Translations under genes and position numbers: made by a program
NCBI RefSeq assembly: GCF_003217235.1
Contig: NZ_QJTF01000021.1
Location: 1-64,000, forward strand
Length of the DNA stretch: 64,000 nucleotides
Direction of reading: 5' to 3'
Source of the DNA: Paramesorhizobium leguminum
GTDB taxonomy: Bacteria > Pseudomonadota > Alphaproteobacteria > Rhizobiales > Rhizobiaceae
Part shown: piece after piece, positions 36,478-54,651 of the stretch
Layout: every line of letters starts with the position of its first letter
Position numbering within the stretch: position 1 is the first letter of the stretch
Notes under the pieces: generated by a model
What the model was told of the DNA's origin: nothing
The model's database searches: none
The model's input: the letters and a program-made list of their open reading frames with translations, nothing else

Positions 36478-37836
36478 ATGGCCGACATCCGTATCCTCCT
36501 TAACGATAGATCAATCAGTGAGCTGGGACGGCCCATTTCTGGGCAGTACCGCGCCCGTGATACCCAACTTAAAGGATTCCACGTCGTAGTGGGTAAGCGG
36601 ACCAAGGTATTCGTGGTTCAGGGAGACTTGAGGAAGGATGGCAAGCGTGCCGCGTCGATTTCCGTTCGGATCGGAGATGCCGAAGCAATGTCTACGCGTG
36701 AGGCGCGCGCGATCGCTAAGAAATACCTCGCGCAGATATCAAAGGGTGAGCATCCCAATCCGAAACCTACCGAGAACTCTAGGAAAAATGAAGACGAGAC
36801 AATGCCGCGTAACGCGGACGCCTTCCCGAAAGGGGTTACTTTACGTGAAGCATGGGAACGATATCGCGATTCACACCTCGTTCGAAAGGGCCGGAGTGAA
36901 GGAACAATTGAAGGATATAAAGACCACGTCGAACGTCTCTTCAAGGGCTGGCTCGATACATCTTTGCTGGAATTGGCCAACGATCCCGGCCAAATAATCG
37001 CCAAACATGACGAGATTACCACGGAGCATGGTCCATACATTGCCAATGGTAGTATGCGGACCCTGCGCGCCATCTATAATCATGCCCGCAAGGCGCACCG
37101 TCATCTCCCGACTGACAATCCGGCCAGCATGGTTGATTGGAACTCAGAAAAACGTCGAAACACCGCGATGGGATTGGATGATCTGCCCAGTTGGTTTCAG
37201 CAAGTCGCAGCACTGCCAAACCCGATCCGGCGAGAATTCCATCTATTTTCTCTGCTCTCAGGATGCCGCCCGACAGCCTTGATGGAGGCTAAGCCACAGC
37301 ATCTTGACCTGCGTCGCCGCGTATTGCACATCCCACGTCCAAAGGGCGGTGCCGACCGAGCATTCGATATTCCACTATCGCGCCAGATGATTTTGTGCCT
37401 TGCGCGAGCGATCCGCTTTGCGCGTCGCCTCTACCCTTCCGGAGCCCCTGACTGGCTGTTCCCTGCGGATAGCGATAGTGGACATCTAGCTGAACAGAAG
37501 GAGGATCGAGCCATTTTGGCCAAATGGGGTAACGACCTGCGTCAGACGTTTCGAACTCTTGCAACCCCAGCCGGCGTCTCGGAATTCGACGCGCGCTTGT
37601 TGATGAACCATGCCATTCCCGGTGTCAACGCCGGCTATATATCGCGCCACAAACTCCTTGAAAATCATCTTCGGGCTCAGCAGCAATCAATCAGTGATAC
37701 GATATTCGGTGCCCTGGGTGATTTGATCGCGGAGGATAACGCTGTTCGCTTCTGGCTCGGCCGGAATGTTACAAAACACGCAATAGAGGCCGCTAAGCAG
37801 GGAAATGAAAGCAAGGCACCTGGGAACGTCGCATAG
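36478..37836 (+). CDS. int: Tyrosine-type site-specific integrase of the ICE
   Basis: A 452-residue integrase with an N-terminal arm-binding domain (about 1-90, DUF4102-like), a SAM-like core-binding domain (about 120-220) and a C-terminal catalytic domain. Catalytic residues are Arg264 (SGCRPTAL), Lys289 (RPKGG hairpin), Arg355 (NDLRQTFRT), His378 (LLMNHAIPG) and Tyr387 (NAGYISRH). The usual first His of box II is Asn352, a change tolerated in several ICE integrases. It lies about 190 bases from the tRNA-Arg fragment, so it almost certainly recombines at that tRNA. Its 3' end was copied twice downstream. Confidence 0.9.
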   Translation: MADIRILLNDRSISELGRPISGQYRARDTQLKGFHVVVGKRTKVFVVQGDLRKDGKRAASISVRIGDAEAMSTREARAIAKKYLAQISKGEHPNPKPTENSRKNEDETMPRNADAFPKGVTLREAWERYRDSHLVRKGRSEGTIEGYKDHVERLFKGWLDTSLLELANDPGQIIAKHDEITTEHGPYIANGSMRTLRAIYNHARKAHRHLPTDNPASMVDWNSEKRRNTAMGLDDLPSWFQQVAALPNPIRREFHLFSLLSGCRPTALMEAKPQHLDLRRRVLHIPRPKGGADRAFDIPLSRQMILCLARAIRFARRLYPSGAPDWLFPADSDSGHLAEQKEDRAILAKWGNDLRQTFRTLATPAGVSEFDARLLMNHAIPGVNAGYISRHKLLENHLRAQQQSISDTIFGALGDLIAEDNAVRFWLGRNVTKHAIEAAKQGNESKAPGNVA

Positions 37837-38035
37837 AAGATCTCAAGCGACAAGCCAGTTGCCGCTGCCAATTCCGGTAACAAAATGTGAGCGTACAGCA
37901 ACAAATAGTCCATTGTTGTTCACATCGCCTCATGGTTGGCTAGCTGAGGGCGCTTGCAAGGTATACGCTAATAGGGCATTCTGGTGTAGTGCCTATCGGC
38001 ACAATCATGAGCACCTCAATATTTGGAGAAACAAG

Positions 38036-38197
38036 ATGAATTTGCAGATTCTGAAAAAGACCGACCGCGATGCCCGGACTGAAACCAACGTCCGCTCGTC
38101 ACTGGATAAAAACCTGATTCGTGAGTTGACTGCTGAAGAGATGGTACTAATTTCGGGTGGACAGCGTGGCGGCTGTGGTGGCTGTGGGGTACACTAA
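38036..38197 (+). CDS. Putative RiPP precursor 1 (double-glycine leader)
   Basis: A 53-residue precursor: a 42-residue leader ending ELTAEEMVLISGG and an 11-residue core QRGGCGGCGVH with two Cys. GGAGA lies about 6 bases before the ATG. The conserved leader core (ELTxEEMxxISGG) is the double-glycine type cut by C39-peptidase exporters, and a C39 ABC exporter lies in the cluster. Two tandem paralogues share the leader almost completely while the core differs, the usual precursor pattern. The cores are too short and Gly-rich to be ordinary folded bacteriocins. Confidence 0.85.
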   Translation: MNLQILKKTDRDARTETNVRSSLDKNLIRELTAEEMVLISGGQRGGCGGCGVH

Positions 38198-38216
38198 GAA
38201 TTCATTCGATTCCGAT

Positions 38217-38241
38217 CAATGGGCAGCTGAGCTGCCCATTG
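38217..38241 (+). terminator. Near-perfect palindrome after precursor 1
   Basis: CAATGGGCAGCT and AGCTGCCCATTG are separated by one base, giving a long stem 20 bases after the stop. Equivalent stems follow precursors 2 and 3. The U-tract is weak, so it may trim or stabilise the transcript as much as end it. Confidence 0.6.
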
Positions 38242-38404
38242 AGATCAATTTGTAATTTAAAAGATAAGTTCCAGAATAGGTTTTCGGCCCCAACTTTAAA
38301 TTATCGCCTACCGAACGTCTCACAAGTAAGACAGACAATTTACTTAATGATATATAAATCTTTATGTCTGGCTGCTGTTTACAGCGTTCTATACTTTACA
38401 AGCA

Positions 38405-38697
38405 AATGCGTTTTTTTCGCGTTCCTTGTATCCGCCTGTGGCTCTGATGCTGCCCCCCTCGCGGACGGCGAGAGTGGGCATTTAGCTGAGCAGAAAGAGG
38501 ACCGAGCCATTTTGGCGAAATGGGGTAACGACCTGCGTCAGACGTTTCGAACTCTTGCAACCCCTGCCGGCGTCTCGGAGTTCGACGCGTGCTTGCTGAC
38601 GAACCATGCCATTCCCGGTGTCAACGCCGGCTATATTGCGCGACACAAACTCCTTGAAAATCGCCTTCGGGCTCAGCGGCAGTCGGTCAGTCAGTGA
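38405..38697 (+). pseudogene. Copy of integrase 3' end (duplication unit 2)
   Basis: The sequence from SGHLAEQKEDRAILAKWG to the frame end matches integrase residues about 335-403 with high identity, and more diverged similarity reaches back to about 38405. It is joined to an unrelated upstream stretch and lacks the rest of the gene. It is part of the tandem copy that carries precursor 2. Confidence 0.85.
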
Positions 38698-38853
38698 TAC
38701 GAAATGTCAGCGTACAGCAACAAATAGTCCATTGTTGTTCACATCGCCTCATGGTTGGCTCGTTGAAGGCGCTTGCAAGGTATACACTAATCGGGCATTC
38801 TGGTGTAGTGCCATCGGCACAATCATGAGCACCTCAATATTTGGAGAAACAAA

Positions 38854-39021
38854 ATGAATTTGCAGATTCTTAAAAAAACCGACAGCCATACCAGGACTGA
38901 AGCTAACGTCCGCTCGTCACTGGATAAAAACTTGATTCGTGAGTTGACTGCTGAAGAGATGGTCCTAATTTCCGGTGGAAAACGCGGCGGCGGTTGTGGC
39001 TGCGGCGGCGGATATGCTTAA
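38854..39021 (+). CDS. Putative RiPP precursor 2 (double-glycine leader)
   Basis: A 55-residue precursor with the leader MNLQILKKTDSHTRTEANVR...ISGG (42 residues) and a 13-residue core KRGGGCGCGGGYA containing two Cys. The 150 bases upstream match the region before precursor 1 almost base for base, including the GGAGA ribosome site and a GTGCC/GGCAC hairpin. It lies 818 bases downstream of precursor 1 within a duplicated unit. A stem (39041-39065) follows it. Confidence 0.85.
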   Translation: MNLQILKKTDSHTRTEANVRSSLDKNLIRELTAEEMVLISGGKRGGGCGCGGGYA

Positions 39022-39040
39022 GAGTTCATTCGATTCTGAT

Positions 39041-39065: not shown

Positions 39066-39269
39066 AGATCGATGTGAAAGTTGACAAGTAAGTTCCAGTA
39101 TATGTCGTCCACCTCAATTCTGGATTGGTACGTCGCCAAATGCCTTACAATTCGGGCGGACAATTTACTCAATGATCTTTGCCGTCCCTCCTAAGCTTTC
39201 GCGTCTCCCTGATGTTTTCACGCATTCTATACTTTACACGCAAAGCGCTTTGGGCATTCCTTGTATCCG

Positions 39270-39380
39270 TCTATGGCTTCCGACCGGCTGTTTCCTGCGG
39301 ACAGCGAGAGGGGGCATGCTGAACAGGAAGGAAGATTTGGGCCTTCTGGCGAAATGGGCAATACGCGATGTTACACCGCC
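39270..39380 (+). pseudogene. Older, degraded copy of integrase 3' segment (unit 3)
   Basis: The bases GACCGGCTGTTTCCTGCGGA, then CAGCGAGAGGGGGCATG and AAATGGGCAATACGCG, align with the integrase stretch encoding DWLFPADSDSGHLAEQ...KWGNDLR but with deletions and frame changes. It lies just before precursor 3 and shows that the third unit arose from the same duplication at an earlier time. Confidence 0.65.
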
Positions 39381-39517
39381 CGGATCAACAATGGAATGTT
39401 GTCTACATGCCTCCAGATAGAAGTTGAAAATCCTTGAGAGGCACACGTTTATAGGGCATACTTGTGACGTGCCAGTAGGCACTATCATAAGCACATCATG
39501 CAATTTGGAGAAATGAA

Positions 39518-39685: not shown

Positions 39686-39714
39686 TAGGCAGAGGCTTAT
39701 CCAAGCTTGAGTTG

Positions 39715-39932: not shown

Positions 39933-41891
39933 ATGCAATACGATAAAGACGTTATTTCGCCAGCTACACGACGTGAAAATTCAGAAGATATCGGCCGGAA
40001 CGCAAGCGCCAATCCGACGATGGGAGATGTTATTGCTCGTCGTTATTCAAGACGCAGCGTGATACGCGGGTCGTTAGCCGTCGCTGCTATCGGCGCAATT
40101 ATCGATCCCTTGGCACTCATTGCACGGAATACCGCGCAGACAAAGGAGGCCTCAAGTTTTGAATTCGAAGAATTGGGAGCTGGGTCTGACGAAACACACC
40201 ATGTCGCAAACGGCTATCGTGCAGATATTTTGTTACGCTGGGGTGATAAAATCTTTCCTGGCTCGCCTAGTTTCAATTCGGCTAGTCAATCTGCAACGGC
40301 TCAAGCAAAACAGTTTGGCTATAACAATGATTTCGTTGGCTTTATTCCAATAGACGGCGCAAATGATCGCGGCCTCTTGGTAGTAAATCATGAATATACA
40401 AATCCTGAACTGATGTTCCCGAATTTCGCCAAGATAGAAAATGGAGAAGTATCGCTGGGACGATATACCAAAGATCTTGTTGACATTGAAATAGCTGCGC
40501 ACGGCGGCACAATAATTGAGATACGCAAAATCAAAAGCAACTGGCATCCCGTTCTAGATAGTTATTATAATCGCAGGATCACAGCGGCAACAGAGATGGA
40601 ACTCTCGGGGCCGGTAGCCGGTCACGATCGAGTTAAGACATACGCTGACCCTTCCGGGAAAAAGGTTTTTGGTACGCTTAATAATTGTGCTGGCGGTCTA
40701 ACGCCATGGGGCACCTATCTGATGGCAGAGGAAAATATCAATGGTTATTTCAACGGTAGACTAGCCGACGGCCACGTGGAATTTCAAAATCATAGTCGTA
40801 TGGGCATACCCGACGCTTGGTACGATTGGGGGAGTTTTTATGATCGCTTTGATGTTTCAAAGGAGCCTCTCGAACCGAACCGGTTTGGCTGGATCGTGGA
40901 AGTTGATCCTTTCGAGCCAACCTCTATACCTAAGAAAAGGACTGCTCTTGGGCGATTTAAACACGAAGGATGTGAAACCGTTGTGAGCCCAAGTGGCCGT
41001 GTCGTGGCCTATTCGGGAGATGACGAAAGATTCGAGTATGTGTATAAATTTGTAAGTAAGGGCGTTTACGATTCAAGCGACCGAATGTCGAACAAAGATC
41101 TCTTAGATGAAGGGACACTCTATGTTGCTAGATTTGACGTGGATGGCACCGTTGATTGGTTGCCACTTGTGTATGGCAGAGGGCCTCTAAAATCCGAGAA
41201 CGGATTTATGAGCCAAGCTGACGTGTTGATTGAAACTCGGCGAGCTGCGGACCTTCTAGGCGCAACAAAAATGGATCGCCCTGAGGATATCGTACCAAAT
41301 CCCGCCACTGGCAAAGTGTATGTTATGCTAACAAACAACACCAGACGGACTGCCGACAATTTGGATGCCGCGAATCCACGTTCCGAAAATGCCTTCGGCC
41401 ACATCATAGAAATCTCTGAGCCAGATGGTGATTTTACATCAAAGACGTCACGCTGGGAAATTTTGCTCAAATGCGGCGACCCGTCGATAGCCCATGTGGG
41501 CGCAACCTTTTCACCGTCAACCAGCGAGAACGGCTGGTTCGGTATGCCGGATAACGGCACCATTGATACAGATGGACGGCTTTGGGTTGCAACCGACGGA
41601 AACAGTAAGGAGAAGACTGGTCGTACTGACGGGTTGTGGGCGGTCGAGACGGAGGGCCCTGAACGAGGCCGTTCAATGTTGTTCTTTCGTGTACCTATAG
41701 GAGCCGAAATGTGCGGCCCGTGCTTTACGCCGGATGGAGAAGCACTATTTCTTTCCGTTCAACACCCAGCCGAAGGCGGTTCATCGACATATGAATATCC
41801 ATCCACTCGCTGGCCTGATTTTGATCCAAATATTCCAGCTCGGCCGGCCGTTGTCGTTGTTACAAAGTTAGGCGGGGGGAAATTAGCTTAG
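39933..41891 (+). CDS. phoX: PhoX-family (DUF839) phosphatase with Tat signal
   Basis: A 652-residue protein of the PhoX/DUF839 family: calcium/iron-dependent periplasmic alkaline phosphatases with a beta-propeller fold. A twin-arginine export signal lies at about residues 36-60 (ARRYSRRSVIRGSLAVAAIG), so it is exported folded. Family segments include LLVVNHEYTNPELMFPNF, LNNCAGGLTPWGTYLMAEEN, KHEGCETVVSPSGRVVAYSG, DRPEDIVPNPATGKVYVML and FTPDGEALFLSVQHPAEG. It lies between the precursors and the exporter genes, but a direct role in peptide maturation is unproven. Confidence 0.88.
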   Translation: MQYDKDVISPATRRENSEDIGRNASANPTMGDVIARRYSRRSVIRGSLAVAAIGAIIDPLALIARNTAQTKEASSFEFEELGAGSDETHHVANGYRADILLRWGDKIFPGSPSFNSASQSATAQAKQFGYNNDFVGFIPIDGANDRGLLVVNHEYTNPELMFPNFAKIENGEVSLGRYTKDLVDIEIAAHGGTIIEIRKIKSNWHPVLDSYYNRRITAATEMELSGPVAGHDRVKTYADPSGKKVFGTLNNCAGGLTPWGTYLMAEENINGYFNGRLADGHVEFQNHSRMGIPDAWYDWGSFYDRFDVSKEPLEPNRFGWIVEVDPFEPTSIPKKRTALGRFKHEGCETVVSPSGRVVAYSGDDERFEYVYKFVSKGVYDSSDRMSNKDLLDEGTLYVARFDVDGTVDWLPLVYGRGPLKSENGFMSQADVLIETRRAADLLGATKMDRPEDIVPNPATGKVYVMLTNNTRRTADNLDAANPRSENAFGHIIEISEPDGDFTSKTSRWEILLKCGDPSIAHVGATFSPSTSENGWFGMPDNGTIDTDGRLWVATDGNSKEKTGRTDGLWAVETEGPERGRSMLFFRVPIGAEMCGPCFTPDGEALFLSVQHPAEGGSSTYEYPSTRWPDFDPNIPARPAVVVVTKLGGGKLA

Positions 41892-41927: not shown

Positions 41928-42189
41928 TCAGCGCCACTGGCAGAAGCATCCACTTAGCGCAGTCGGCCGCACGCTCCTACCGAGCTTCTTGCGGCACGAA
42001 TAAATCTGTCGCGAAACAACATCGTGCCGGCGCGTAATATCGGCCACGCCTGAGCCGCTCGCCGCCGCCGCCTTCCAAATTCCGAAGCTTCTCTTCCTCG
42101 CCCCACGCGCGCCGGCGCTCAATCCGCGCCAACATCTCAACCAGTCCAATAAGTCCCCCCTTCACTACGTCAATAAGTCCAAAATTCAA
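41928..42189 (-). pseudogene. Frameshifted remnant of an IS66/IS3-type transposase helper (orfA)
   Basis: Two overlapping leftward frames together restore a TnpA/orfA-like HTH protein: VEMLARIERRRAWGEEEKLR in one frame, then AAAASGSGVADITRRHDV and SRQIYSCRKKLG in the next. The family consensus is RRRWSxEEKLRILEEAxxxG...VARRHGVSxxQIYxWRRKL. The frame change in the middle and the lack of the rest of the element mark it as a dead remnant. The span 41892-42201 holds nothing else. Confidence 0.65.
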
Positions 42190-42201: not shown

Positions 42202-43377
42202 CTAAATGGATGGGAGCACGTCACTTATGTCTGGACCAAAGAATATTCTTAGAGTATCTACATCTATATTATTATGACGCACCGGGAGAATATCTAGTTC
42301 GTTTATTCCAGAGTTAACTAATCCAAACGCTCTTGAAATTTCTTCAGCAAAATCTCTCCAAACTGCATAATTAATTCTTACCTCAACGGGATTTTTACTA
42401 ACTAACGGATATGTTGATCCAACTATCTTATTCACCTCATCAATTACCCCCCGCGTGCGCTCTGTATGCCAAATTTTTTTATTGTACGTCATAAATGATG
42501 TATCAATATATCTAATGTTGCTCTTAACAATACCATAAATATTTAGCGAATTAGGAAAGCTAACGCGAAGATCGGACCGAATGTCTACTTCACCTGCTAA
42601 CCCCATAAGGGAGGATAGTCTCACATAATTGTAGATTAAAGCTAAAAGGTCGGCCGCCCATGCGAGCGATGAATAATCAATCAAAGCGCGCATATCAAAA
42701 TCAGTGGAAATAAACGCCTCTTTTTGATGATCATCCGGATTGAGCACCGACGCAAGAAAGTGCTTGATCATATTAGGCGGTCCTGCGCAAACCTCTTTCT
42801 GGCCAATTAATTTCCCGTGTGAGTCAACATATGCATAGAGAATCTCGGGAGTTTGCACATCTGGCGGATTCGCATCTCCTTGATTGGCAAAAAAGCCAAG
42901 ATCTATAAATCCCTGAGAAAGCTTTGCTGCGACAGCTACTTCCTGGGGAAGCGACTTTGGCAGACCATGCAACTCTGTAAGAAGCCAAGGCTGCGGCGCC
43001 TTATAACCCACATATCCAAGTCTGAGCAAATGACTGATCGAGTCGTTATTCTGCGGAAAAGTTTCTTTCTGTATGAGCGCTGATATATGTGAAAGGTACA
43101 TTTTGACGCTACCCGCATTCTCTGTTAAATACCGAAGAGCGCCAAAATTCATGGGCTTTTCGTGATGATGTCTAGAATCTCGAAAAGGACATATTTTATA
43201 GTCCGCCTGATCGGTCGGGTATAAAATAGATCTCCCTTCTAAGAGCGTTCGACCACCTTCGTCCCGCGCTTCCATGGGCAAGAACGTTCTAAAAACCGGA
43301 TATCCCAAAACAAATGGAATGTGAATTGGATAAGGAATTTGAATATCATTCTCAGACTTGTATTGTTCTTTTGACAT
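42202..43377 (-). CDS. Unknown 391-residue protein in the RiPP exporter operon
   Basis: No family is recognised. It begins MSKEQYKSENDIQIPYPIHI and has no signal peptide or membrane helix. Notable features are a His-rich stretch (CPFRDSRHHHEKPMNFGALR), a central PDVQTPEILYAYVDSHG segment, and helical parts (AWAADLLALIYNYVRLSSLM, then WRDFAEEISRAFGLVNSG). Its start is one base after the stop of the C39 ABC exporter, with GAAGTGAG inside that gene as ribosome site, so it is coupled to adaptor and exporter. It is a prime candidate for a maturation, immunity or leader-binding protein. Confidence 0.7.
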   Translation of the reverse strand: MSKEQYKSENDIQIPYPIHIPFVLGYPVFRTFLPMEARDEGGRTLLEGRSILYPTDQADYKICPFRDSRHHHEKPMNFGALRYLTENAGSVKMYLSHISALIQKETFPQNNDSISHLLRLGYVGYKAPQPWLLTELHGLPKSLPQEVAVAAKLSQGFIDLGFFANQGDANPPDVQTPEILYAYVDSHGKLIGQKEVCAGPPNMIKHFLASVLNPDDHQKEAFISTDFDMRALIDYSSLAWAADLLALIYNYVRLSSLMGLAGEVDIRSDLRVSFPNSLNIYGIVKSNIRYIDTSFMTYNKKIWHTERTRGVIDEVNKIVGSTYPLVSKNPVEVRINYAVWRDFAEEISRAFGLVNSGINELDILPVRHNNIDVDTLRIFFGPDISDVLPSI

Positions 43378-43378
43378 T

Positions 43379-45553
43379 TTAATGGCTCACTTCAACTAAA
43401 GTCCCGTGGTCGCGATCAAGATTATATACTCGATCCGCCTGCTGAATGGTCGATTCTCTGTGCGCCGTCATTATGATAGTTTTCTTGAGGCGACGAAGCG
43501 ATTCGAATATTTGTGCTTCTGTTTCCATATCTAAGTTCCCAGTAAACTCATCCAGCAATAGGACCTCCGCGCGCGTATAAAATGCGCGAGCTAGGAAAAT
43601 ACGTTGCTTCTCGCCCACGGAGAGAACTGCAGAGTTTGACGCAACTGGCGTATACAGCCCCATCGGCAATCGATCTAAAAAAACCGATACACATGCATCA
43701 GAGCAAGATTCCTTTACACGCTCCATGTCCGGATCGGAGCTAAAATGGGCAATGTTCTGAAGAAGTGTACCGCTAAAAATCTGGTCTTCCTGCATGACCG
43801 TGGCGACATGCCGAACGAGATTTTGTCTCGACCATGACTGAAGCTCTTTCCCAAGCCAAGTGATGTTCCCTTCCTCCGTGGGCAATAAACCTGTAAGGAC
43901 GCGAAGCAAAGTGCTTTTCCCAGCACCTGTCCGCCCGGTGATAGCTATAATTTCATGCCGACGCACTTCTATATTGACTTTTTTTAAAAGCCGACGAGAA
44001 GCTGGGTCAAATCTGAAATCGACGTCTCTGCACAGTAGAATTTCGGAGCCCTCCCCACGGAGGTGCGACAGGTCTCCTACAGTTTGATTCTTCCGATCAC
44101 GATTAGGTTCGATCAACATAGGGTCGCGTTCCGCAGCAATTAACGTACTCATATCGGACAACATATATTGGATATCTAGCAATCCGGTAAGCCGACGGGC
44201 GAGATTCGCCAGGCTCATAGTCAAGAATGCTTGAAACAGCGACAAAGATAAAAAATTCTCAATGGTCATTTTATCATGCAAAACCTCAAAAGCGGCGAGC
44301 GCGACAAGTCCGCACCTTCCTACTCCCAGCCACGTATTTCCAACGAGGTCCGTTTTAGCGGAAAGTCCATTGAGAGCGTCATGAGCTGAAGCCGCTCTAC
44401 GGTATGCAACTTGCCAAATAGCCGAGCGTACGCCTTCGAGCCCATTTAATTTAATGGCTTGAATATTTCTAAGATTATCCATCAACGTGAGATTTTCATG
44501 ATTATCCGCTGCCGCAGTACGTTTAAACATCTCCATTCGGTTACGCTGAAGTCTATATATAATCGTGAAATACAGTAACGTAATAAATACAAGTGCCAAC
44601 CCAAATGTCGTATCAAATGCAAATGTTGCAATCATGAGAACTAGCAATATTATTAAATCAACAATTGAATCAATAATTCCCTCAGATATTATTTGCCGAA
44701 CCCGCCTTAGATTCTGATAATACCTAGCGATCATGCTTGGTGTTTTTCTGACAAAAAAAGCAAATGAAGTATTAAATATCGCATCATTCAATATGGTTGC
44801 TATCGAATGTTCAATGTCCTTCGATAAGTCTCTGGTCAACCTATGCTTTACATAACTAAATACGAATACCATAAACAATATAACACAGGTGATGGCCAGA
44901 ATTATATATATTGATATGATGTTCTTTGGCCCAACGGCAGCTTCAATTATAGCTCTAAAATATACTGGAAAAATAAACACGCTTATCGACGTTATAAGTG
45001 CTACCGCCAAAATTAGAATTATGCGGCACTGCGCATGTGGAGCGCTTAAGAAAAGATCCTTCAACTGAATCTTATGGAGCTGCGAGAGATTTAACAAAGC
45101 AGAGTTTGAAGAAAACTCGACCGCAATACCTGTAAAGAATCGTGATAATTCATTTTCTCTCAATCGGAAACGACCTTGCGCGGGATCTAAGATCGTGTAC
45201 AGGCCGTTTTTTAGTCCGGAAAGAACCACATAATGGTTAAATCCCCAATGCAATAATGCTGGCAACTTTATATTCTTGAGAGCCTCCATTTCGACTCGGA
45301 TTGCGCGAGCGCTAAAACCGAGTCGATCAGCTATTCCGAGTAGCTGCGCTAGGCTCATCCCTTCTGCCGAAGTGGGAAATCGATGCTTCAATGCGCTAAG
45401 TTCATAGCTCCTATTGTGCCTTTTGGCGATCATCGCAAGGCAAGCCAAGCCACAGTCAGCGGCGTCTTCTTGAAATACAAGCTCAGGATCCAAGAGTCTT
45501 TTTTCCCAACAATAGATCGATAAGCCGCAGCCGGCGGATCGTAAAGAAAGCAT
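43379..45553 (-). CDS. Peptidase-containing ABC transporter (C39, double-glycine cleaving)
   Basis: A 724-residue exporter. The C39 papain-like peptidase carries Gln28, Cys34 (AADCGLACLAM), His107 (LHWGFNHYVVL) and Asp123 (ILDPAQGRF). Then come six membrane segments and a nucleotide-binding domain with Walker A ITGRTGAGKSTLL, signature LSVGEKQRI (LSGGQ variant) and Walker B VLLLDEFTGNLD. Such enzymes cleave after GG leaders and export the core peptide, fitting the three precursors. The ATG at 45553 overlaps the adaptor by 70 bases; a TTG at 45493 (LDPELVFQEDAADCG) is a likely alternative start. Confidence 0.92.
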   Translation of the reverse strand: MLSLRSAGCGLSIYCWEKRLLDPELVFQEDAADCGLACLAMIAKRHNRSYELSALKHRFPTSAEGMSLAQLLGIADRLGFSARAIRVEMEALKNIKLPALLHWGFNHYVVLSGLKNGLYTILDPAQGRFRLRENELSRFFTGIAVEFSSNSALLNLSQLHKIQLKDLFLSAPHAQCRIILILAVALITSISVFIFPVYFRAIIEAAVGPKNIISIYIILAITCVILFMVFVFSYVKHRLTRDLSKDIEHSIATILNDAIFNTSFAFFVRKTPSMIARYYQNLRRVRQIISEGIIDSIVDLIILLVLMIATFAFDTTFGLALVFITLLYFTIIYRLQRNRMEMFKRTAAADNHENLTLMDNLRNIQAIKLNGLEGVRSAIWQVAYRRAASAHDALNGLSAKTDLVGNTWLGVGRCGLVALAAFEVLHDKMTIENFLSLSLFQAFLTMSLANLARRLTGLLDIQYMLSDMSTLIAAERDPMLIEPNRDRKNQTVGDLSHLRGEGSEILLCRDVDFRFDPASRRLLKKVNIEVRRHEIIAITGRTGAGKSTLLRVLTGLLPTEEGNITWLGKELQSWSRQNLVRHVATVMQEDQIFSGTLLQNIAHFSSDPDMERVKESCSDACVSVFLDRLPMGLYTPVASNSAVLSVGEKQRIFLARAFYTRAEVLLLDEFTGNLDMETEAQIFESLRRLKKTIIMTAHRESTIQQADRVYNLDRDHGTLVEVSH

Positions 45554-47350: not shown

Positions 47351-47791
47351 ATGTCCGCAAATGAGAAACCAATTCGCGTTCGAGTAGCCGGCATCGTCTT
47401 TTATGAAGACGAAATATTGATAGTCGAACACAAGAGCGGATCAGAGATTTGGGCATGCTATCCTGGGGGCAGAATGGAAAGTGGAGAAAAGCCTGAAGAT
47501 TGCCTCAAACGAGAATTGTTTGAAGAACTTCAACTTACCTGCAACATTGATTACTTGGCTGGAATCGGTGATTTCATTGACAATACATCACATAATGTCG
47601 AGATGTTTTTTAAATGCACTGCATTGTCAAAAAATATAATCAGGGACGACCGGGAATTATATAGTGCGCAATTTGTAAAAATATCCTCACTTGATAAATG
47701 GACAGTATATCCCATTGAAGTTACGCAAACTATACCAGAAATCAAAAGCGCCGGAACACCAACAACATTTTACTATGGGCGGTTCTCGTAG
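47351..47791 (+). CDS. NUDIX hydrolase
   Basis: A 146-residue enzyme with a complete Nudix box, GGRMESGEKPEDCLKRELFE followed by EL (G-x5-E-x7-REUxEExGU pattern, with Gln-Leu at the end). It hydrolyses nucleoside-diphosphate-linked compounds. In this operon, with a nucleotidyltransferase and kinases, it may control a nucleotide-containing donor or intermediate; that is inferred. Its TAG stop overlaps the GTG start of the glycosyltransferase by one base. Confidence 0.88.
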   Translation: MSANEKPIRVRVAGIVFYEDEILIVEHKSGSEIWACYPGGRMESGEKPEDCLKRELFEELQLTCNIDYLAGIGDFIDNTSHNVEMFFKCTALSKNIIRDDRELYSAQFVKISSLDKWTVYPIEVTQTIPEIKSAGTPTTFYYGRFS

Positions 47792-49137
47792 TGATAGCGT
47801 TTTCCTTAATTAGTATCTTCATGTGCAGTGCCGTACTTGGGGGGATGCGAATCTGGCATTCAGCCAAGCAAATTAGGGCGTCAGAAACCCGCGCCTCATG
47901 CTCGGTCACCGATGCTTCAACGACAACCGAGCCAGCAAAAATTTGGCTCTTCCTCCCGATGTTAAATGAGTACGATGCTGCAGCTGAGTCTATTCGGTAC
48001 TTTGCAAAGATAGCTCAAGCTGCACCGAGGGAGATTAACGTCCGGATCATTGTAGTAACGACCGCTAAGGAGCAAATTAGCGGTTATAAATCAACGAATG
48101 TTATAGCGCGGGAGACAATTGTTGAAGTTAACAACGTTGCTGGGCGGGATCTGGTATTCCACGAGCATTATCCGAACCAGGTCGGGTGGAAGCCCCACCA
48201 GCTAAATTGGGCGATACGCCGGATGATCGAGCGCGACTGCCCGGATGATTGGAAACGAGTACTCATTGCGGTCTATGATGTTGATGCGCGACCAAATGAA
48301 ATGACTCTGACTGCGCTTATGGCGTTTATGTCCGCAAATCGCCCTTGGCCCGAGGTAGTGCAACAGTTGTCAACTTACTTCCCTACCAGTGGTCGTGTTG
48401 CGCGTTTCACAATATGGGGTGCTATGGGGGCGTTATGGCAGACACGATTTACCTTGGCAATTGAACGTACAATGATTGAAAGATCAGGACGTTCCAGTCC
48501 ACGTTGTTTGTTGTGGTCTATCGCTAATGGGTTTTTTATCAGGCTTGATACATGGAAGCGGATTGGTTTTTTTACAGAAAAGTTTCAGACTGAGGATATC
48601 GAGCTTGGCTACCGGCTATCCGCCGCTGGCGTGCCCATAGAACTCCTCAATCCGCCACTGGAAACCGGTAATCCGTGCGACTTTATTACGGATGTTAAGC
48701 AAAAATCTAGATGGTTCAGCGGCTTATTCGACTATCTTCGCTATCCTGGTTCCTGCGGATTTGGCTCTCCGCTTTCTCGTTTGTTTCTCGCCTTCCAGGG
48801 ACTTCTCCGGGGTGTTCTTTGGATTTCATCTGGCCCAGTTCTTGCCGTCTCGATACTAGCGCCATTCCTCTTTGGGATTTCATCCGTGACGCTGCTTTTG
48901 TCGATAAGCGCATACCTTCTTCCAGTAGTGCTAATGTACATAACTATGTTGGCGCTGGCTGATTTTGCTTCCTCCGAACGGACAAAAAGTGCATTGGTTC
49001 GCCCCTCGGTAGCACTCGCAATACCATTTTTGGCGCCTCTATACGCAGTAAATTACTGTTTCGGTCCGTTCCTGTACCTCGCAAAATTTGTATTTTCTCG
49101 CACACGTTATCCTAGGGAGAGATGGACTAATGCTTAG
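47791..49137 (+). CDS. Membrane GT2-family glycosyltransferase (cellulose-synthase-like motifs)
   Basis: A 448-residue protein with a GTG start overlapping the NUDIX stop. An N-terminal anchor is followed by a GT-A domain whose motifs are DVDARP (DxD-like), FQTEDIELGYRL (catalytic ED) and QKSRWFSG (QxxRW). Four C-terminal membrane segments follow. This D,D,D,QxxRW set marks processive or lipid-linked GT2 enzymes such as chitin- and cellulose-synthase relatives. The acceptor is unknown: it could glycosylate a lipid, a surface polymer or the peptide itself. Confidence 0.82.
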   Translation: MIAFSLISIFMCSAVLGGMRIWHSAKQIRASETRASCSVTDASTTTEPAKIWLFLPMLNEYDAAAESIRYFAKIAQAAPREINVRIIVVTTAKEQISGYKSTNVIARETIVEVNNVAGRDLVFHEHYPNQVGWKPHQLNWAIRRMIERDCPDDWKRVLIAVYDVDARPNEMTLTALMAFMSANRPWPEVVQQLSTYFPTSGRVARFTIWGAMGALWQTRFTLAIERTMIERSGRSSPRCLLWSIANGFFIRLDTWKRIGFFTEKFQTEDIELGYRLSAAGVPIELLNPPLETGNPCDFITDVKQKSRWFSGLFDYLRYPGSCGFGSPLSRLFLAFQGLLRGVLWISSGPVLAVSILAPFLFGISSVTLLLSISAYLLPVVLMYITMLALADFASSERTKSALVRPSVALAIPFLAPLYAVNYCFGPFLYLAKFVFSRTRYPRERWTNA

Positions 49138-50302
49138 CATCCTAGATAAACTTTACAGCATTCAGTTAGAATACGCTGACAATTTTTCACTTCCATCAAC
49201 CTCTGCTAGACTTGAGAGCAATAAATCTGAGCAAATTAATATCGCTTCGGAATATTTCCTTCCATACCGTTATTCAATTATAGAAAAAGTTACACCGACT
49301 ATACAAGCAATTCATCGAGCAGATATCGCAGATGGATTATATAATGCGATCAATAAACTTCCACTCGGGACACAGATTACACATCACCCTGATACGAGTT
49401 ACGATCTGCGATGCGTTGATTCATTTAAAATTTTCTCTTCCAAGAAGGGAAGCCCGCACTGCATTGTTGTCAGTGACGGCAAATTCGTCGTGGTCACCGA
49501 CGGCACTGATGCTCCGGAATCTTACAAACCTTCGTTACGCCTAGTTCGCGAGATGTTCGTGAGAAATCTAGAGCTGCAAGGTGGCTTCTCTCTTCATGCC
49601 AGTGCGGCGGCAATCGATGGTCGAGGTTACTTGTTTGTTGGGGATTCCGGTGCCGGCAAAACGTCTATTGCGACAGCGGTTGCTCGATGTTTGGGCGGTC
49701 GATTTCTATCCAGCGACCGAGCAATTTTGAAGCCCACCAATGGAACCTATGAGATCATTCCTTGGCCAATGGTAATTAACATCGGCCTAGGCGCTTGCCG
49801 CGCAATTAATTCAAGCGACGGTTTTTGGGAGCAGCACCTTCCGGAAACGGCAAATGCATACTTTCAGCACTACGGTAAGACATTTTCTGAGCAGCTCTCT
49901 TTTTTGGATAGTGACAAATACGCCCTTACGCCGGGAGAGGCCCAAAATCTACTGTCTGTAAAAATATCGGCGAAAGAAGAACTTTTTGCTGTGATTTTTC
50001 CGGAGCTGGCAGAAGGCCCAGATAGCTTTTGTGAGTTTACCGAAGAACCATTTACCGCAACTATGTCGGCATTTCAGCGACAGTTGCGGTGCCCCGAAGA
50101 TCGAACCTATCCATTTGGAATTGTGGAGTGTGCATGGCGCGATCCAGAAAAATTGCAGGTTCATTGCGACGAAGTGCTGACCAGAGTTGCCAAGACAGTT
50201 AGGTGCCTTCGTTTACGTATATCGAAGCCGGCTTTAACGAAAATACTGCGTAGCCGTTCTGTATTTGATTTGGATGTAGCTCTGAGGGCACAATATGCTT
50301 GA
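49130..50302 (+). CDS. HprK-like serine kinase
   Basis: A 390-residue protein from ATG at 49130, overlapping the glycosyltransferase by 8 bases. Residues 150-300 form an HPr-kinase-like domain: GGFSLHASAAAIDGRGYLFV, Walker A GDSGAGKTSIA (171-181) and the LSSDRAIL (SDRA, equivalent of DDR) segment. HprK-related kinases occur in lasso-peptide and other RiPP clusters, where some phosphorylate a Ser of the product (paeninodin type). The target here is unknown; cores 1 and 2 contain no Ser, but core 3 has one. Confidence 0.8.
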   Translation: MLSILDKLYSIQLEYADNFSLPSTSARLESNKSEQINIASEYFLPYRYSIIEKVTPTIQAIHRADIADGLYNAINKLPLGTQITHHPDTSYDLRCVDSFKIFSSKKGSPHCIVVSDGKFVVVTDGTDAPESYKPSLRLVREMFVRNLELQGGFSLHASAAAIDGRGYLFVGDSGAGKTSIATAVARCLGGRFLSSDRAILKPTNGTYEIIPWPMVINIGLGACRAINSSDGFWEQHLPETANAYFQHYGKTFSEQLSFLDSDKYALTPGEAQNLLSVKISAKEELFAVIFPELAEGPDSFCEFTEEPFTATMSAFQRQLRCPEDRTYPFGIVECAWRDPEKLQVHCDEVLTRVAKTVRCLRLRISKPALTKILRSRSVFDLDVALRAQYA

Positions 50303-50915
50303 TGGGAAAATTTCGGTAGTCTTTGAAGGTCTCCCATGCGGCGGGAAAACCACCTTGATCAATGAATTGGCAAAGCATATCCCAGGCAGCGAGGCGGTTA
50401 GAGAGTGGGTCAGACCACAACATGAACTATGCCCGACCGATGGGACGATCGCCGCTGTTCGTAACGATTATCTGAAGTCTTCTGCAATGAAGACGGCTAA
50501 GAGCGTCGTGTTCATCGATAGATTCATTTATAGCACTTTGCCATACGACATCGCGCGTACGCAGAGATTCATCACGCCCACCATATATGAATACCAGCAT
50601 AGGACTCTGTTTACAGAGGAAATAGAATGCCCAACGCACTTGATTATTATTCCTTCCGATGTGGCTACAAGTCGTAGAGAAAGCAGAAAACGGGGGTGGC
50701 CGGCTGAAGGAAACCCTTGGTTTGATGAGTCATTTTTGGCGATTTATGAACGATACTATGAGGATCTCCTTCGTCCAGAACTGACCTGGTTTGGGGAACG
50801 CAAGGAAATTAAAAAACTCCGCTTAGCGAGCAGCGATATCAAGTCAAGAGTAGACGAAGTGTGTAAATTTCTCAATTTAAGCGAGAAAGTCGCAGCTAAA
50901 CGTGCCGTAAATTAG
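50295..50915 (+). CDS. Thymidylate-kinase-like P-loop kinase
   Basis: A 206-residue kinase of the deoxynucleoside/thymidylate kinase fold. The P-loop is FEGLPCGGKTTL (residues 10-21). FIDRFIYSTLPYD corresponds to the DR(Y/F)xxS motif of dNK/TMK enzymes, and a lid region RRESRKRGWPAEGNPW follows. It overlaps the HprK-like gene by 8 bases. Its substrate need not be dTMP; in this operon it may make a special nucleotide or phosphorylate a metabolite. Confidence 0.75.
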   Translation: MLDGKISVVFEGLPCGGKTTLINELAKHIPGSEAVREWVRPQHELCPTDGTIAAVRNDYLKSSAMKTAKSVVFIDRFIYSTLPYDIARTQRFITPTIYEYQHRTLFTEEIECPTHLIIIPSDVATSRRESRKRGWPAEGNPWFDESFLAIYERYYEDLLRPELTWFGERKEIKKLRLASSDIKSRVDEVCKFLNLSEKVAAKRAVN

Positions 50916-50940: not shown

Positions 50941-51357
50941 ATGAAATTTGTTAATGAAGGAGAGTTTCGTGTCCGACAGCTCTTCGTCGACGCTTATGGA
51001 TGTAACATGGATCTTTCCGATGTCGACAAAATCGCAGCAGTCGCCGAGCGGGGAATCTTGAGCGTCGGCGCTCAAATCCGAAATAGGGCAACAGAGTATT
51101 TTCAGCCGCATGGCGCCACGATAGTTTATATTTTGGCAGAATCGCATGTCATAATAACGACGTGGCCCGAATACAAGTATGCCGCGATTGATGTCTTATT
51201 ATGTAACTTATCTATGGACCCGCGACGCGTATCGGAGGAGGTGATAAAACTGCTTTCGCCCTCTGATATTAATGAGCAACTAATTGATAGGTTAATTTAT
51301 ACAGAAGGTCAAAATCTAGAATCGTCACAGAAGATGTTCGAGGGAGCGGCAGAATGA
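50941..51357 (+). CDS. speD: S-adenosylmethionine decarboxylase (SpeD-like) with altered processing residues
   Basis: A 138-residue prokaryotic-type AdoMetDC, an enzyme that makes decarboxylated SAM, the donor of aminopropyl groups. The self-cleavage site AESHV (Ser68) and the segment TWPEYKYAAIDVLLCN with the proton-donor Cys88 are present. Compared with Thermotoga AdoMetDC, the residues aligned with Ser55 and His68, both needed for self-processing there, are Thr60 and Thr73. GGAGGAG precedes the ATG. Its stop overlaps the next start (ATGA), so it is coupled to the aminopropyltransferase-like gene. Confidence 0.88.
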   Translation: MKFVNEGEFRVRQLFVDAYGCNMDLSDVDKIAAVAERGILSVGAQIRNRATEYFQPHGATIVYILAESHVIITTWPEYKYAAIDVLLCNLSMDPRRVSEEVIKLLSPSDINEQLIDRLIYTEGQNLESSQKMFEGAAE

Positions 51358-52448
51358 TGCAGATTAAAATTGGAACGGACGAGGTATTCGTCGCTATTGT
51401 AAAAGCATTGTCGATGTTCGGCCCTTTGGATTTAGATGGATTAGTAAAAATTGTGCCCGCCTATGACAAATCACTTTTCAGCGCAATCTCTGTAGGACTG
51501 AGCAGTGGAAAGTTTGAGCGCATAGGGAATAAAATTTCGCTAGTTGCGGCACCCCACGGAACGGCACCCGTCGTTCCTGAATGTCCGTGTTGCAGAGGTC
51601 GCCTCGCAGTGCCGGTTGCTCATGCAGATGCTCTTAAAGAACGCTATCTCGAGGCCTGTTCATCAGCACCTACGCTTACATATCTTTTAAATCAACGGCC
51701 AGTTACACGCGAAACGTCTTGGTATAGAGCGCTCTATATGGCGTTGAGGGGAGATCTCATAGGAAAGCGAATTGCGCTTCTCGGAGATGATGATCTAACA
51801 AGCTTGGCAATTGGACTTCTCGGACAAGATTGTGAGATCGTAGTTTTCGAGGCCGACGATCGGCTGGTTTCATTCCTAGCGCGGCAAGCCGATCAGCTGG
51901 CGATCTCGCATTTCTCTACCGTGGAGTACAACTGCAGAGAGGACGTTCCCGAACCGTTTAAGGGTACCTTCGACGTAGCTCTATGCGATCCGTCCTCATC
52001 TCTTTTTCAAATATTCCTATCACGTTGTGTTACGCTACTAAAGCCTGGTTCCGGTCAAATAATCTACACCTTCGCCGGACCAACTTATTTGGCATCAACC
52101 TTGGAATTCCAGCGTCTTGCAACGGATTTAAAACTACAAATTTTTGATATGATACCAGCATTTAACCGTTACGCGTTGGTACATTCCGAACTCGTTGGGG
52201 GACAAGATACTCTTATTCGAGAGATCGGGGGAAGTGAAGATGTGAGCTTTGTAGAGGCACTTGTTCGGTTAGGCACTACTGGCGATACACATCCTTTGAC
52301 GGTCGGCGACAGCAATGCCTCGGTAAAAGACCTTTATGGAGATCGCGCCTTCCAGCGCCTCCAGAACTTGGAGAACGACCCTGCATCGAAGACAGAGCCA
52401 ACTGAAGTCTGGAACCGCCTGTATGAGAAGTTTAGTCCAAAAGATTGA
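51354..52448 (+). CDS. BpsA/DUF43-like branched-polyamine (aminopropyl) transferase
   Basis: A 364-residue protein similar to N4-bis(aminopropyl)spermidine synthase (BpsA) of thermophiles. It shows an N-terminal winged-helix part, a CPCCRGRL (CxxCxGR-like) motif, the SAM-fold motif ALLGDDDLTSLAIGLLG (GDDD at 144-147) and the acidic segment FEADDR. Where BpsA has DPPY, this protein has DPSSS (212-216), so its acceptor site differs. With SpeD immediately upstream it very probably transfers aminopropyl groups from decarboxylated SAM; the acceptor is unknown. Confidence 0.82.
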   Translation: MMQIKIGTDEVFVAIVKALSMFGPLDLDGLVKIVPAYDKSLFSAISVGLSSGKFERIGNKISLVAAPHGTAPVVPECPCCRGRLAVPVAHADALKERYLEACSSAPTLTYLLNQRPVTRETSWYRALYMALRGDLIGKRIALLGDDDLTSLAIGLLGQDCEIVVFEADDRLVSFLARQADQLAISHFSTVEYNCREDVPEPFKGTFDVALCDPSSSLFQIFLSRCVTLLKPGSGQIIYTFAGPTYLASTLEFQRLATDLKLQIFDMIPAFNRYALVHSELVGGQDTLIREIGGSEDVSFVEALVRLGTTGDTHPLTVGDSNASVKDLYGDRAFQRLQNLENDPASKTEPTEVWNRLYEKFSPKD

Positions 52449-52500
52449 TGAACACTCCCAGTCACGACTGGCTGCGAGCCGTTCCTACGAGGGGGGCAAA

Positions 52501-53562
52501 ATGTTAAATTCCAATCCACCATTCGCGGAAGAAATTCGTCGTTTTTTTTATGAACAGTTTTCCGAGGAGGGCGAGGCAATCGCCCTCGCCGGCTCTCAAG
52601 CTCTTGGATATGCCACATCTCGATCTGATATAGATCTTGTTCTGCTTATTAAGCCATCTTCGGGGTTATCGCAGAGCGATATGAGTTTCCTTACACAATT
52701 AATTTCTGGTCGGAGAACAGAAATTCTTATCTTAACGCCTGGAACTATAGAGGAGAGATTTGCTCGCACAAAAGCGGAGAAGTACAATAATCTAGGTTAT
52801 TCAGACCGTAGATTCATCGAAAGGATTTCCACAGCAATTCCCATCGTTGGGGAGCAGCGATGGAACGCCATCCTTACATCGTTCGATAGGGATACGTACG
52901 TTGCGCAGATGTTGCGGGATAATTTAACTCTTGCATCCAAGTCTTTTGACGATCTCGTCGGACTTTATGTAGATGGCGATTATATCAACGCAGTAGACGC
53001 TGTCCGGTTTCTCCTGCAGGTTGAATTGGAGGCACTACTATGCACATTTGGCGATACTGGGGACCGAAGACGTTGGTTATTACGCCGTGCGGGCTTGATA
53101 AAGGATTTAGATCCGAAAGTCACGTCCGGATTTACTGAATATAATTTCAATATGATAAACAATAAATTTTCTACAAATTTTGAATGGATCGAGAACGCCA
53201 TGCGATTCCATCAGTATATTCAATGTCAAATTCTAATAAAGAAATATCATGCCGATATTGGAAATCTAATTTGCTCCGACTATAACACTCATAGCTCGGC
53301 CTTTATTACGCCAAGTCTGTTATTTTTGGATTGTGTAAATGAGACATGGTACGTGAAAACCGCTAAAGAAAGCAGAGTTATAGACGAGACATCGTCGTTT
53401 ATACTTATGATTTGTCATCTCGGCCAAAATATTAATAATATTGCATACTACTTCTCGCTGATTTCTCCCGCTCTTGCTACATCTAGCGATACTATAAAGT
53501 TTCTATCCTCTCGTATCGATCAGCTGGTTGATTTAGGGCTGCTAACTAAAAATGCGAGCTAG
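52501..53562 (+). CDS. Nucleotidyltransferase with C-terminal PqqD-like (RRE-type) domain
   Basis: A 353-residue protein from ATG at 52501 (GAGGGGGGC upstream). The N-terminal MNT/pol-beta-type nucleotidyltransferase motif is AGSQALGYATSRSDIDLVLL (GS 31-32, DxD 43-45). A helical middle is followed by about 70 residues, SRVIDETSSFILMICHLGQ ... IKFLSSRIDQLVDLGLL, which read like a PqqD-type winged helix, the RiPP recognition element that binds leaders. If correct, the enzyme would be guided to the precursors and attach a nucleotidyl group. The RRE call rests on pattern, not a search. Confidence 0.72.
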   Translation: MLNSNPPFAEEIRRFFYEQFSEEGEAIALAGSQALGYATSRSDIDLVLLIKPSSGLSQSDMSFLTQLISGRRTEILILTPGTIEERFARTKAEKYNNLGYSDRRFIERISTAIPIVGEQRWNAILTSFDRDTYVAQMLRDNLTLASKSFDDLVGLYVDGDYINAVDAVRFLLQVELEALLCTFGDTGDRRRWLLRRAGLIKDLDPKVTSGFTEYNFNMINNKFSTNFEWIENAMRFHQYIQCQILIKKYHADIGNLICSDYNTHSSAFITPSLLFLDCVNETWYVKTAKESRVIDETSSFILMICHLGQNINNIAYYFSLISPALATSSDTIKFLSSRIDQLVDLGLLTKNAS

Positions 53563-53618
53563 CCTCTGATAGAATTCGCTGCGAATATTTCGTTGCTATA
53601 TATAGGGAGATCAAAGCA

Positions 53619-53912
53619 ATGAGACGTCTTGTAGGCTTGATGTGCGTATTCTGTTATACATTAATATTGCCGTTGAATGCGCAGGAATTATATTCATTAT
53701 TTCGGCAACGCCATTCTGAATTCTGTAAAATGGTCAATACAATAGTCACTCATCCCCCATTGCATCCTTACCTGAATGTTGGAAGTGCTATCTGGCAAAC
53801 ATTGCCCGAGAACGAGAAAAATAAACGAATCGCAAAGTACGAGGCAACGCTAAATGAGGTGATGTATTGGGAGAAGCAGAAGAAAAACTGCGCACCAATT
53901 CTATTACAGTAA
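53619..53912 (+). CDS. Small secreted protein, possible immunity or partner
   Basis: A 97-residue protein with a signal peptide (MRRLVGLMCVFCYTLILPLN, cut near AQE), then a helical mature part of about 75 residues with two Cys (SEFCKMV, KKNCAPI) that could form a disulfide. I recognise no family. GGGAGA stands upstream. Within the RiPP operon a periplasmic protein of this kind could be immunity protein, chaperone or scaffold; this is speculation from position. Confidence 0.55.
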   Translation: MRRLVGLMCVFCYTLILPLNAQELYSLFRQRHSEFCKMVNTIVTHPPLHPYLNVGSAIWQTLPENEKNKRIAKYEATLNEVMYWEKQKKNCAPILLQ

Positions 53913-53943
53913 AGTGACTACAGATTAACACAGGCCAGTTATA

Positions 53944-54651
53944 ATGCTTTCAAAAATTAAAAGTTCATATACATCTCGTTTTGGCGTATTTATTTTTGAT
54001 TATGATGGAACTTTAGCTGCTACGAGAACAGCAGTCATTAAATGTTTTTCTCAAACGCTTCGCGAACGGTTTGCTACTATCCCCATGGAAACAATCGAAG
54101 CGGTAATCGCAAGTGGAGGGTTACTGGAAGACGCATTTGCGAGATTAATGCCGGGATTCACGAATACAGATATTCGGAATTGTGTCTCTCGATATCGCGA
54201 AATTTATATCGAAATTGATCAAGAAACGACGGTCTTATTCGAGGGCGTGAAAGAGACCCTTACTGCGCTCCATCGCGAGGGCCGTAAAATTGTGGTGTTG
54301 AGCAATAAGGGGCGTGTCTCTCTGGAGACAGGGCTCGAAAGGTTTAATCTAACGCACCTTATTACCGCAATTTTACCAGCCGATCAGAATGAACCCACCA
54401 AGCCGAACCCCGAAGTTTTTTTTCGGCGTGTACGCCCGTTATTTGGGGGGATACCGCTTTCAAGTTTTATAATGATTGGCGATACATTCGCTGATATCGC
54501 ATTTGCGCGAGCTTCTAATATCGCAAGTTGTTGGGTAAGCTACGGATATGGCGATGCTATTCAGTGCTTGTCCATGCGCCCCGATTTCGTTATTGGTTCA
54601 CTTCGAGAACTCCTTCCTTCTGGAAGACACGCTTCGACACTCAATTGTTGA
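53944..54651 (+). CDS. HAD-superfamily phosphatase (last gene of the RiPP operon)
   Basis: A 235-residue HAD hydrolase of the phosphoglycolate-phosphatase group. Motif I is FIFDYDGTLAATRTA, motif II lies in VVLSNKGRVS, motif III around KPNPEVFFRRV and motif IV is MIGDTFADIAFARA. It can dephosphorylate small molecules. Together with the kinases and NUDIX gene in the operon it suggests that a phosphorylated intermediate is formed and later released. Start codon without strong ribosome site. Confidence 0.8.
   Translation: MLSKIKSSYTSRFGVFIFDYDGTLAATRTAVIKCFSQTLRERFATIPMETIEAVIASGGLLEDAFARLMPGFTNTDIRNCVSRYREIYIEIDQETTVLFEGVKETLTALHREGRKIVVLSNKGRVSLETGLERFNLTHLITAILPADQNEPTKPNPEVFFRRVRPLFGGIPLSSFIMIGDTFADIAFARASNIASCWVSYGYGDAIQCLSMRPDFVIGSLRELLPSGRHASTLNC

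Follow-up and report, generated by a model that had tools for sequence, protein, structure and literature searches.

A putative peptide biosynthesis and export locus with a SpeD/BpsA-like gene pair on a mobile element of Paramesorhizobium leguminum

The locus and its mobile element

The stretch of DNA analysed in this study (the window, 64,000 nucleotides) comprises positions 1-64,000 of contig NZ_QJTF01000021.1 of Paramesorhizobium leguminum, and the system in question, a putative peptide biosynthesis and export system, lies at 36478-54651. Three precursor-peptide genes, an exporter operon read leftwards and a ten-gene operon read rightwards were found in this interval, which is carried by an integrative and conjugative element (ICE). 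An attL site of 45 bp (36243-36287, forward strand), which repeats without mismatch the 3' end of a tRNA-Arg(ACG) gene of a different contig (C12), adjoins a gene for a tyrosine integrase of the Arm-DNA-bind_3 type (36478-37836, forward strand; PF13356 3.3e-8; Phage_integrase 0.019, below the cut-off). Genes with family matches to the trb conjugation proteins TrbI, CagX/TrbG, VirB8/TrbF and TrbL come after the cargo (54716-59032, reverse strand). By these features the element is classed as a trb-type ICE inserted in tRNA-Arg; its second end is on another contig and the two ends are not joined. The placement of this DNA on an ICE in the preliminary description is thus borne out by the integrase, the trb genes and the attL match. 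The system genes are also at the positions given there, except that the integrase belongs to the ICE and not to the peptide system.

Analysis of GC content in 2-kb rows gave 42-50% between 38 and 54 kb, 52% in the row 36-38 kb and 57-65% in the rows 16-36 kb and 54-64 kb. Both arms of the system, the leftward exporter operon and the rightward ten-gene operon, are inside a single low-GC block and diverge from one 211-bp gap. No known RNA family matched at E 1 in the 34-56 kb region, and promoter and terminator scans gave signals no better than those of shuffled sequence.

Precursor peptides and their exporter

Three precursor genes on the forward strand were recognised from their open reading frames (ORFs), a leader alignment and nonsynonymous/synonymous (dN/dS) values: P1 (38036-38197; core QRGGCGGCGVH), P2 (38854-39021; core KRGGGCGCGGGYA) and P3 (39518-39685; core QRSGGGVGGGRLG). 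The products are paralogues of 53, 55 and 55 amino acids (aa), in which a conserved leader ending in Gly-Gly (GG) is followed by a variable Gly-rich core of 11-13 aa, and a search of the whole genome found them to be the sole three precursor matches. A GGAGAAA Shine-Dalgarno-like sequence is present at each gene. The genes sit in tandem duplications, two duplicates being 91% identical over 193 bp, and the duplicated segments also contain pieces of the integrase gene 3' end; to judge from these repeats, the peptide genes were amplified jointly with a piece of the integrase gene. Degenerating copies of the integrase 3' end are visible between the precursors at 38239-38697 and 39172-39420.

Comparison of P1 with P2 gave a leader dN of 0.043 and dS of 0.285. 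For P1 and P3, leader dN is 0.148 with synonymous change saturated (23 differences over 29 synonymous sites), against 0.40 in the ungapped core, a value from very short sequences; across pairs, ungapped cores gave dN of 0.33 to 0.42, which are rough values from 11-13 codons. These values place the leaders under purifying selection and the cores among variable sequences, as in leader-conserved precursors. The positions, the leader alignment and this dN contrast together confirm the three short paralogues with GG leaders and Gly-rich cores that had been described.

Within the window, 9 of 1911 short-ORF starts fit a strict GG-leader pattern, every one of them nested in a precursor gene, and in five comparison loci none of 2708 did; the pattern was composed after the precursors were known, which makes the test partly circular. 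That the precursors are more than chance ORFs follows from the tandem duplicates, the Shine-Dalgarno-like sequences and the leader versus core substitution pattern. P2 also gave a sub-threshold match (0.018) to a family of peptides that are targets of radical S-adenosylmethionine (SAM) enzymes.

The exporter gene (43379-45553, reverse strand) encodes a C39 peptidase-ABC protein with a match to PF03412 (2.3e-36) in which the Cys, Walker A/B and signature motifs are present. The GG leader end and the catalytic Cys agree with a GG-leader peptide and C39 exporter type, as had been proposed, and the exporter should cleave the precursors after GG. A single operon is formed by this gene and those of a 185-aa protein (45483-46040, reverse strand) and an orphan 391-aa protein (42202-43377, reverse strand), the latter directly downstream of the exporter gene. 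The 391-aa protein has no Pfam match and no hydrophobic segment over the threshold. The 185-aa protein has one hydrophobic segment and no Pfam match, and is adaptor-like by alignment only: it can be aligned to the C-terminal part only of HlyD adaptors, and blastp against two HlyD proteins gave no match. The exporter, adaptor and partner operon of the preliminary description stands, and the adaptor itself is a weak likeness.

A gene for a PhoX alkaline phosphatase with a twin-arginine (TAT)-like signal (SRR motif) is located at 39933-41891 on the forward strand (PF05787 1.1e-174). It lies inside the stretch and was absent from the earlier reasoning; its membership of the system is uncertain. 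A transposase-like fragment, IS66-like by eye, was seen at 41928-42189, between the PhoX and 391-aa protein genes.

The ten-gene operon

All genes of the rightward operon are on the forward strand. It begins with an APH-type kinase (46252-47307; PF01636 6.7e-22), followed by a NUDIX hydrolase (47351-47791; PF00293 5.6e-16), a membrane GT2 glycosyltransferase with DxD, ED and QxxRW motifs and hydrophobic segments (47791-49137; PF13632 1e-10), an HprK-like P-loop kinase (49130-50302, ORF open from 49088; TIGR04352 1.9e-4, below the cut-off, with relatives on plasmids) and a nucleoside/nucleotide-kinase-like P-loop protein (50295-50915; PF13521 4.1e-6; nicotinamide riboside kinase 0.02). Next are SpeD, an S-adenosylmethionine decarboxylase (50941-51357; PF02675 2.1e-23), a BpsA-like aminopropyltransferase (51354-52448; PF01861 1.1e-32), a nucleotidyltransferase (NTase) of the NTP_transf_2 type with a C-terminal extension (52501-53562, ORF open from 52336; PF01909 3.7e-5), a 97-aa protein with a signal-peptide-like N-terminus by hydropathy (53619-53912) and a HAD phosphatase (53944-54651; PF13419 1.5e-29).

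Most of the families named for this operon in the preliminary description were matched in Pfam or NCBIfam, the HprK-like and small P-loop kinases weakly, and two starts were corrected. The NTase more likely starts at 52501 and the HprK-like kinase at 49130, each ATG being preceded by a purine-rich stretch, and with these starts most gene overlaps vanish. Taken singly, both arms look functional. The motifs tested are present in nine of the ten operon genes, the 97-aa protein having no testable motif, and in the exporter; two departures were found, a substitution of the final Gly of the Nudix box and DPS in place of DPP in the BpsA-like protein. No exporter was recognised among the gene families of this operon.

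The family lists for the cluster proteins contain no YcaO, lanthipeptide, radical-SAM or lasso enzyme, in agreement with the preliminary description, and these four classes of ribosomally synthesised and post-translationally modified peptides (RiPPs) were rejected. No match to ThiF (MccB-like) was obtained for these proteins either. Among the 18 cluster proteins no match to PF05402 (PqqD) was found, the one match in the genome being on contig C2, and no SpI-type leader peptidase was found among the same 18 proteins, other small ORFs not being scanned.

The operon might instead serve a surface polysaccharide, which it would build or decorate as ICE cargo. The QxxRW motif and hydrophobic segments of the GT2 agree with this explanation, as does a GT2 relative in Gloeothece that has a polysaccharide pyruvyl transferase gene and genes for an ABC transporter in its vicinity. 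However, neither a polymerase nor a flippase nor another glycosyltransferase was recognised in the operon, and SpeD, BpsA and NUDIX proteins are unusual in such loci; this explanation appears very improbable.

The SpeD/BpsA-like pair

The speD and bpsA-like genes overlap by 4 bp. SpeD has ESH and TWPE motifs and is the sole PF02675 match in a genome that is 99.85% complete. No match to the spermidine synthase family PF01564 (SpeE) was found in the genome; other polyamine routes were not searched for. Since PF02675 is represented once and PF01564 is not matched, decarboxylated SAM would, as far as these families are concerned, be made and used here only. The two proteins look like a dedicated aminopropyl pair.

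The BpsA-like protein matches the branched-chain polyamine synthase BpsA, N4-bis(aminopropyl)spermidine synthase (PDB 5xnc, 4.8e-21), and shares with it the BpsA_C domain, the GDDD motif and an aligned CxxC. It differs in having DPS for DPP and Pro at Glu259, and in being encoded beside speD in a mobile operon. With residue numbering offset by 20, as taken from the GDDD position, and residue roles in the spermidine site as given in PMC12979288, Asp225 and Tyr290 are kept, Glu259 aligns with Pro and Tyr316 is outside the alignment. A changed acceptor would fit the Pro at this position.

These data bear on an explanation in which no peptide is targeted and the pair, as in thermophiles, yields a branched or longer polyamine that the cell uses or exports. 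This explanation is favoured by the BpsA_C family match and the PDB match, and also by Xenorhabdus-type fusions at four loci amid ordinary-looking chromosomal genes, but a fusion in another genome (G557) has a non-ribosomal peptide synthetase-like gene about 4 kb off. The Pro at Glu259, the DPS motif and the operon setting of the pair, which includes kinases and an NTase, argue against it, and we consider it quite improbable.

BpsA and SpeD matches are adjacent in seven of seven loci, six from Xenorhabdus and one from an Enterobacteriaceae metagenome-assembled genome, obtained with a query alignment that contained such a fusion. In the four of these that were read, and also in G557, the two form one ORF of 501-512 aa. 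The motif scan that found fusions used two patterns from poorly conserved alignment columns, with the Xenorhabdus fusion included, and is biased toward fusions; its silence on other relatives is no evidence. Examples of the fusion are L051-L057 (e.g. L051:9653-11158) and L011:117-1622, in which a single protein could make and use decarboxylated SAM.

Distribution of related genes

The BpsA-like protein was found in 2 of 297 genomes of the order (its own and G106), and PF01861 in 4 of 398 genomes in the phylum (its own and three others). Around four other BpsA loci (G106, G504, G557 and G644) no further window protein was matched except SpeD in G557; in G504 and G557 the BpsA gene is near a contig end. 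From loci collected with and without the fusion query, the SpeD/BpsA pairing is seen to occur elsewhere but is not a rule.

HprK-like matches occurred in 25 of 385 genomes of the class; outside the own genome these were short P-loop matches. For the 391-aa protein the own genome gave the only match (1 of 121 genomes in the family, 1 of 174 in the class), as it did for the GT2 profile (1 of 388 genomes, with up to three candidates scored per listed genome). A tblastn search of plasmids gave no match for BpsA at E 1e-5, for the 391-aa protein or the P-loop kinase at 1e-3, or for P1 at 1, and a single one for the NTase, in Nonomuraea (2e-6), at a locus with no other cluster match. Scans of viral sequences confirmed no relative, and no paper joining SpeD/BpsA with GG peptides was found in the open-access literature.

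Relatives of the HprK-like kinase occur in 37 plasmid records and of the GT2 in five. A Streptomyces GT2 used as query gave four records, all of which carry a row of FAD-oxidoreductase, HprK, kinase, GT4, GT2, NUDIX and APH genes (plasmid loci L016, L064, L092 and L093; L093 has no annotation, and tblastn was used to read it, and the kinase match in L064 is in two pieces). Five gene types are thus common to this row and the window operon, two of them also by sequence: in each of the four loci HprK and GT2 of the window have a match, at E 1e-8 or lower in so small a set. For the window NUDIX and APH no tblastn match was obtained in these loci at E 1; a blastp search confined to seven proteins returned 7e-10 and 2.5e-5, values that large families can give, and the two appear to have only family membership in common with the Streptomyces genes. 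The P-loop kinases of the window and the row are from different Pfam families. In the four loci C39 was not matched, precursor matches were at chance level (6-14 residues) and the GG pattern occurred at none of 2022 short-ORF starts. SpeD and the NTase were not matched in these or in one Nocardia locus, and the BpsA match was at chance level (0.47). At the Nocardia locus the genes for an AAA_28 kinase, a GT2 and a HAD protein follow one another, and an APH gene is close by. Overall, our analysis indicates that some of the operon looks like a mobile gene set, and that SpeD, BpsA and the NTase distinguish the window.

The Streptomyces row gives weight to a further explanation, namely two independent pathways that adjoin: the operon would make an aminopropylated phosphoglycoside- or nucleotide-like small molecule, and the GG peptides would be a separate small bacteriocin or signal that leaves by C39 and has in the 391-aa protein its factor for immunity or maturation. 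It is favoured by the occurrence of the HprK, P-loop kinase, GT2, NUDIX and APH row on four plasmids without C39 or precursor matches, by the Nocardia row, and by matches of the window HprK (1e-9) and GT2 (2e-6) to NBC_01454 when compared with the whole plasmid collection. Against it are the family-level likeness of NUDIX and APH, the different kinase families, the lack of matches for SpeD and the NTase, with BpsA at chance level, in the Streptomyces and Nocardia loci, and the low-GC block and divergent gap common to both arms; very short Gly-rich cores would also seem unlikely to be active if unmodified. We regard it as a serious competitor, second in our ranking. The preliminary description had tied the operon to the precursors; the row comes near to what was named there as a refutation, an operon without precursor genes, although no function is known for the row and its sequence relationship to the window is mainly in HprK and GT2.

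Proposed product and its precedents

The reading that we favour, at a probability of about four in ten, is a RiPP whose short core receives a phosphate-linked, aminopropylated decoration, following the logic of microcin C with different enzymes, as ICE cargo. In such a system the kinases, NUDIX and GT2 would construct an activated phosphorylated unit (nucleotide- or sugar-phosphate-like), which the NTase would join to the short core with the leader still attached. SpeD would produce decarboxylated SAM, from which the BpsA-like enzyme would transfer one or more aminopropyl groups to the unit or the core, and the C39 exporter would then free a product of 11-13 aa. The HAD phosphatase may trim an intermediate, and PhoX, if a member of the system, may act outside the cell to unmask a phosphorylated product. 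As to the 391-aa protein, we can only guess at a role in tailoring or immunity.

A joint RiPP system is supported by selection on the leader, the common GC block, the divergent gap, the lack of a recognised exporter in the rightward operon and the precedents of linear polyphosphorylated peptides (LPP) and microcin C. LPP RiPPs have an HprK kinase, an NTP transferase and an ABC exporter near their precursors (PMC13381572), and paeninodin-like phosphorylated lasso peptides serve as a further comparison (PMC9266682). The window may resemble them: it has a weakly matched HprK-like kinase (TIGR04352, below the cut-off), an NTP transferase (PF01909) and an ABC exporter, and the neighbouring precursors, one to three in number, have a conserved N-terminus and a variable C-terminus. 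As a difference, scanning of the 18 cluster proteins revealed no discrete PqqD/RiPP recognition element (RRE), no SpI-type peptidase and no lasso cyclase. The leaders of the window also lack the [Y/W]xxP motif (absent from all three in the alignment) and use GG with C39 instead, its NTase is in PF01909, and a core Ser is missing in two of the three precursors.

For Bacillus microcin C, a decarboxylated-SAM route is reportedly the subject of a 2025 title by Kulikovsky. Microcin C has an aminopropylated phosphate according to PMC10491745 and PMC12250964. It and the Bacillus aminopropylated form would have in common with the window a nucleotidyl-type transfer to a ribosomal peptide and a SAM-derived aminopropyl group. 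The window differs in having no recognised ThiF-like MccB or pyridoxal phosphate (PLP)-dependent decarboxylase, which the NTP_transf_2 enzyme and SpeD/BpsA would replace, and in its GG leader and C39 export.

Several results weigh against the joint reading. The P1 and P2 cores have neither Ser nor Thr, and the precursor profile was found in 1 of 174 genomes, its own only. The Streptomyces row is without a C39 or GG-precursor match in all four plasmids. SpeD was matched at one of the four BpsA loci found without the fusion query. The window NTase is in PF01909, not in the NTP_transf_5 family found beside a GT2 relative in Vibrio. An RRE-like tail on the NTase, as suggested in the preliminary description, found no support in sequence profiles: Pfam gave no match for the tail, and its score with a 26-sequence PqqD profile was 15.6 (probability 2.4%), a value exceeded by 3 of 200 shuffles and by 5 of the 94 fragments tiled from window proteins. 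Finally, the arms are connected solely by position, common composition and the divergent gap. Closer comparison weakened two points to a similar degree, the likeness to the Streptomyces row (in NUDIX and APH) and how general the pairing of SpeD with BpsA is, so that the odds between the joint and separate readings are unchanged.

Should the rightward operon modify the peptides, a family of branched-polyamine synthases would have been recruited to decorate a ribosomal peptide, and chemistry like that of microcin C would have been rebuilt from unrelated enzymes. The broader proposal of a new RiPP class, with Gly/Cys peptides, nucleotide or sugar-phosphate addition by a stand-alone NTase, SpeD/BpsA aminopropylation, C39 cleavage and export, and the first known peptide tailor of the BpsA family, is unlikely at present. 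Even with separate arms, the recurrence of HprK-like, GT2, NUDIX and APH genes on mobile DNA in two phyla would point to an uncharacterised, testable pathway.

Related loci on other replicons

The GT2 relative of a Vibrio halioticoli plasmid (L061:5272-12826) lies beside NTP_transf_5, with ABC transporter and NUDIX-like genes by eye; this locus also has a radical-SAM-like protein. Another BpsA-like subfamily (308-322 aa), followed by a protein of 193-199 aa, was found in two genomes (L006:9443-14195 and L013:9501-14470) with neighbours alike in both (P-loop, metalloprotease-like and PIN-like by eye) and looks like an uncharacterised system. C39 exporters of Asticcacaulis and Sphingomonas plasmids (L097, L098) resemble that of the window in adjoining an adaptor gene, with about 29.5% exporter identity; they differ in that the adaptor is a full-length HlyD protein and their neighbours match the 391-aa protein at chance level only. 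Beside the exporter of the Sphingomonas parapaucimobilis plasmid, a 52-aa ORF product with a GG-leader-like motif was observed (L098:8920-9078).

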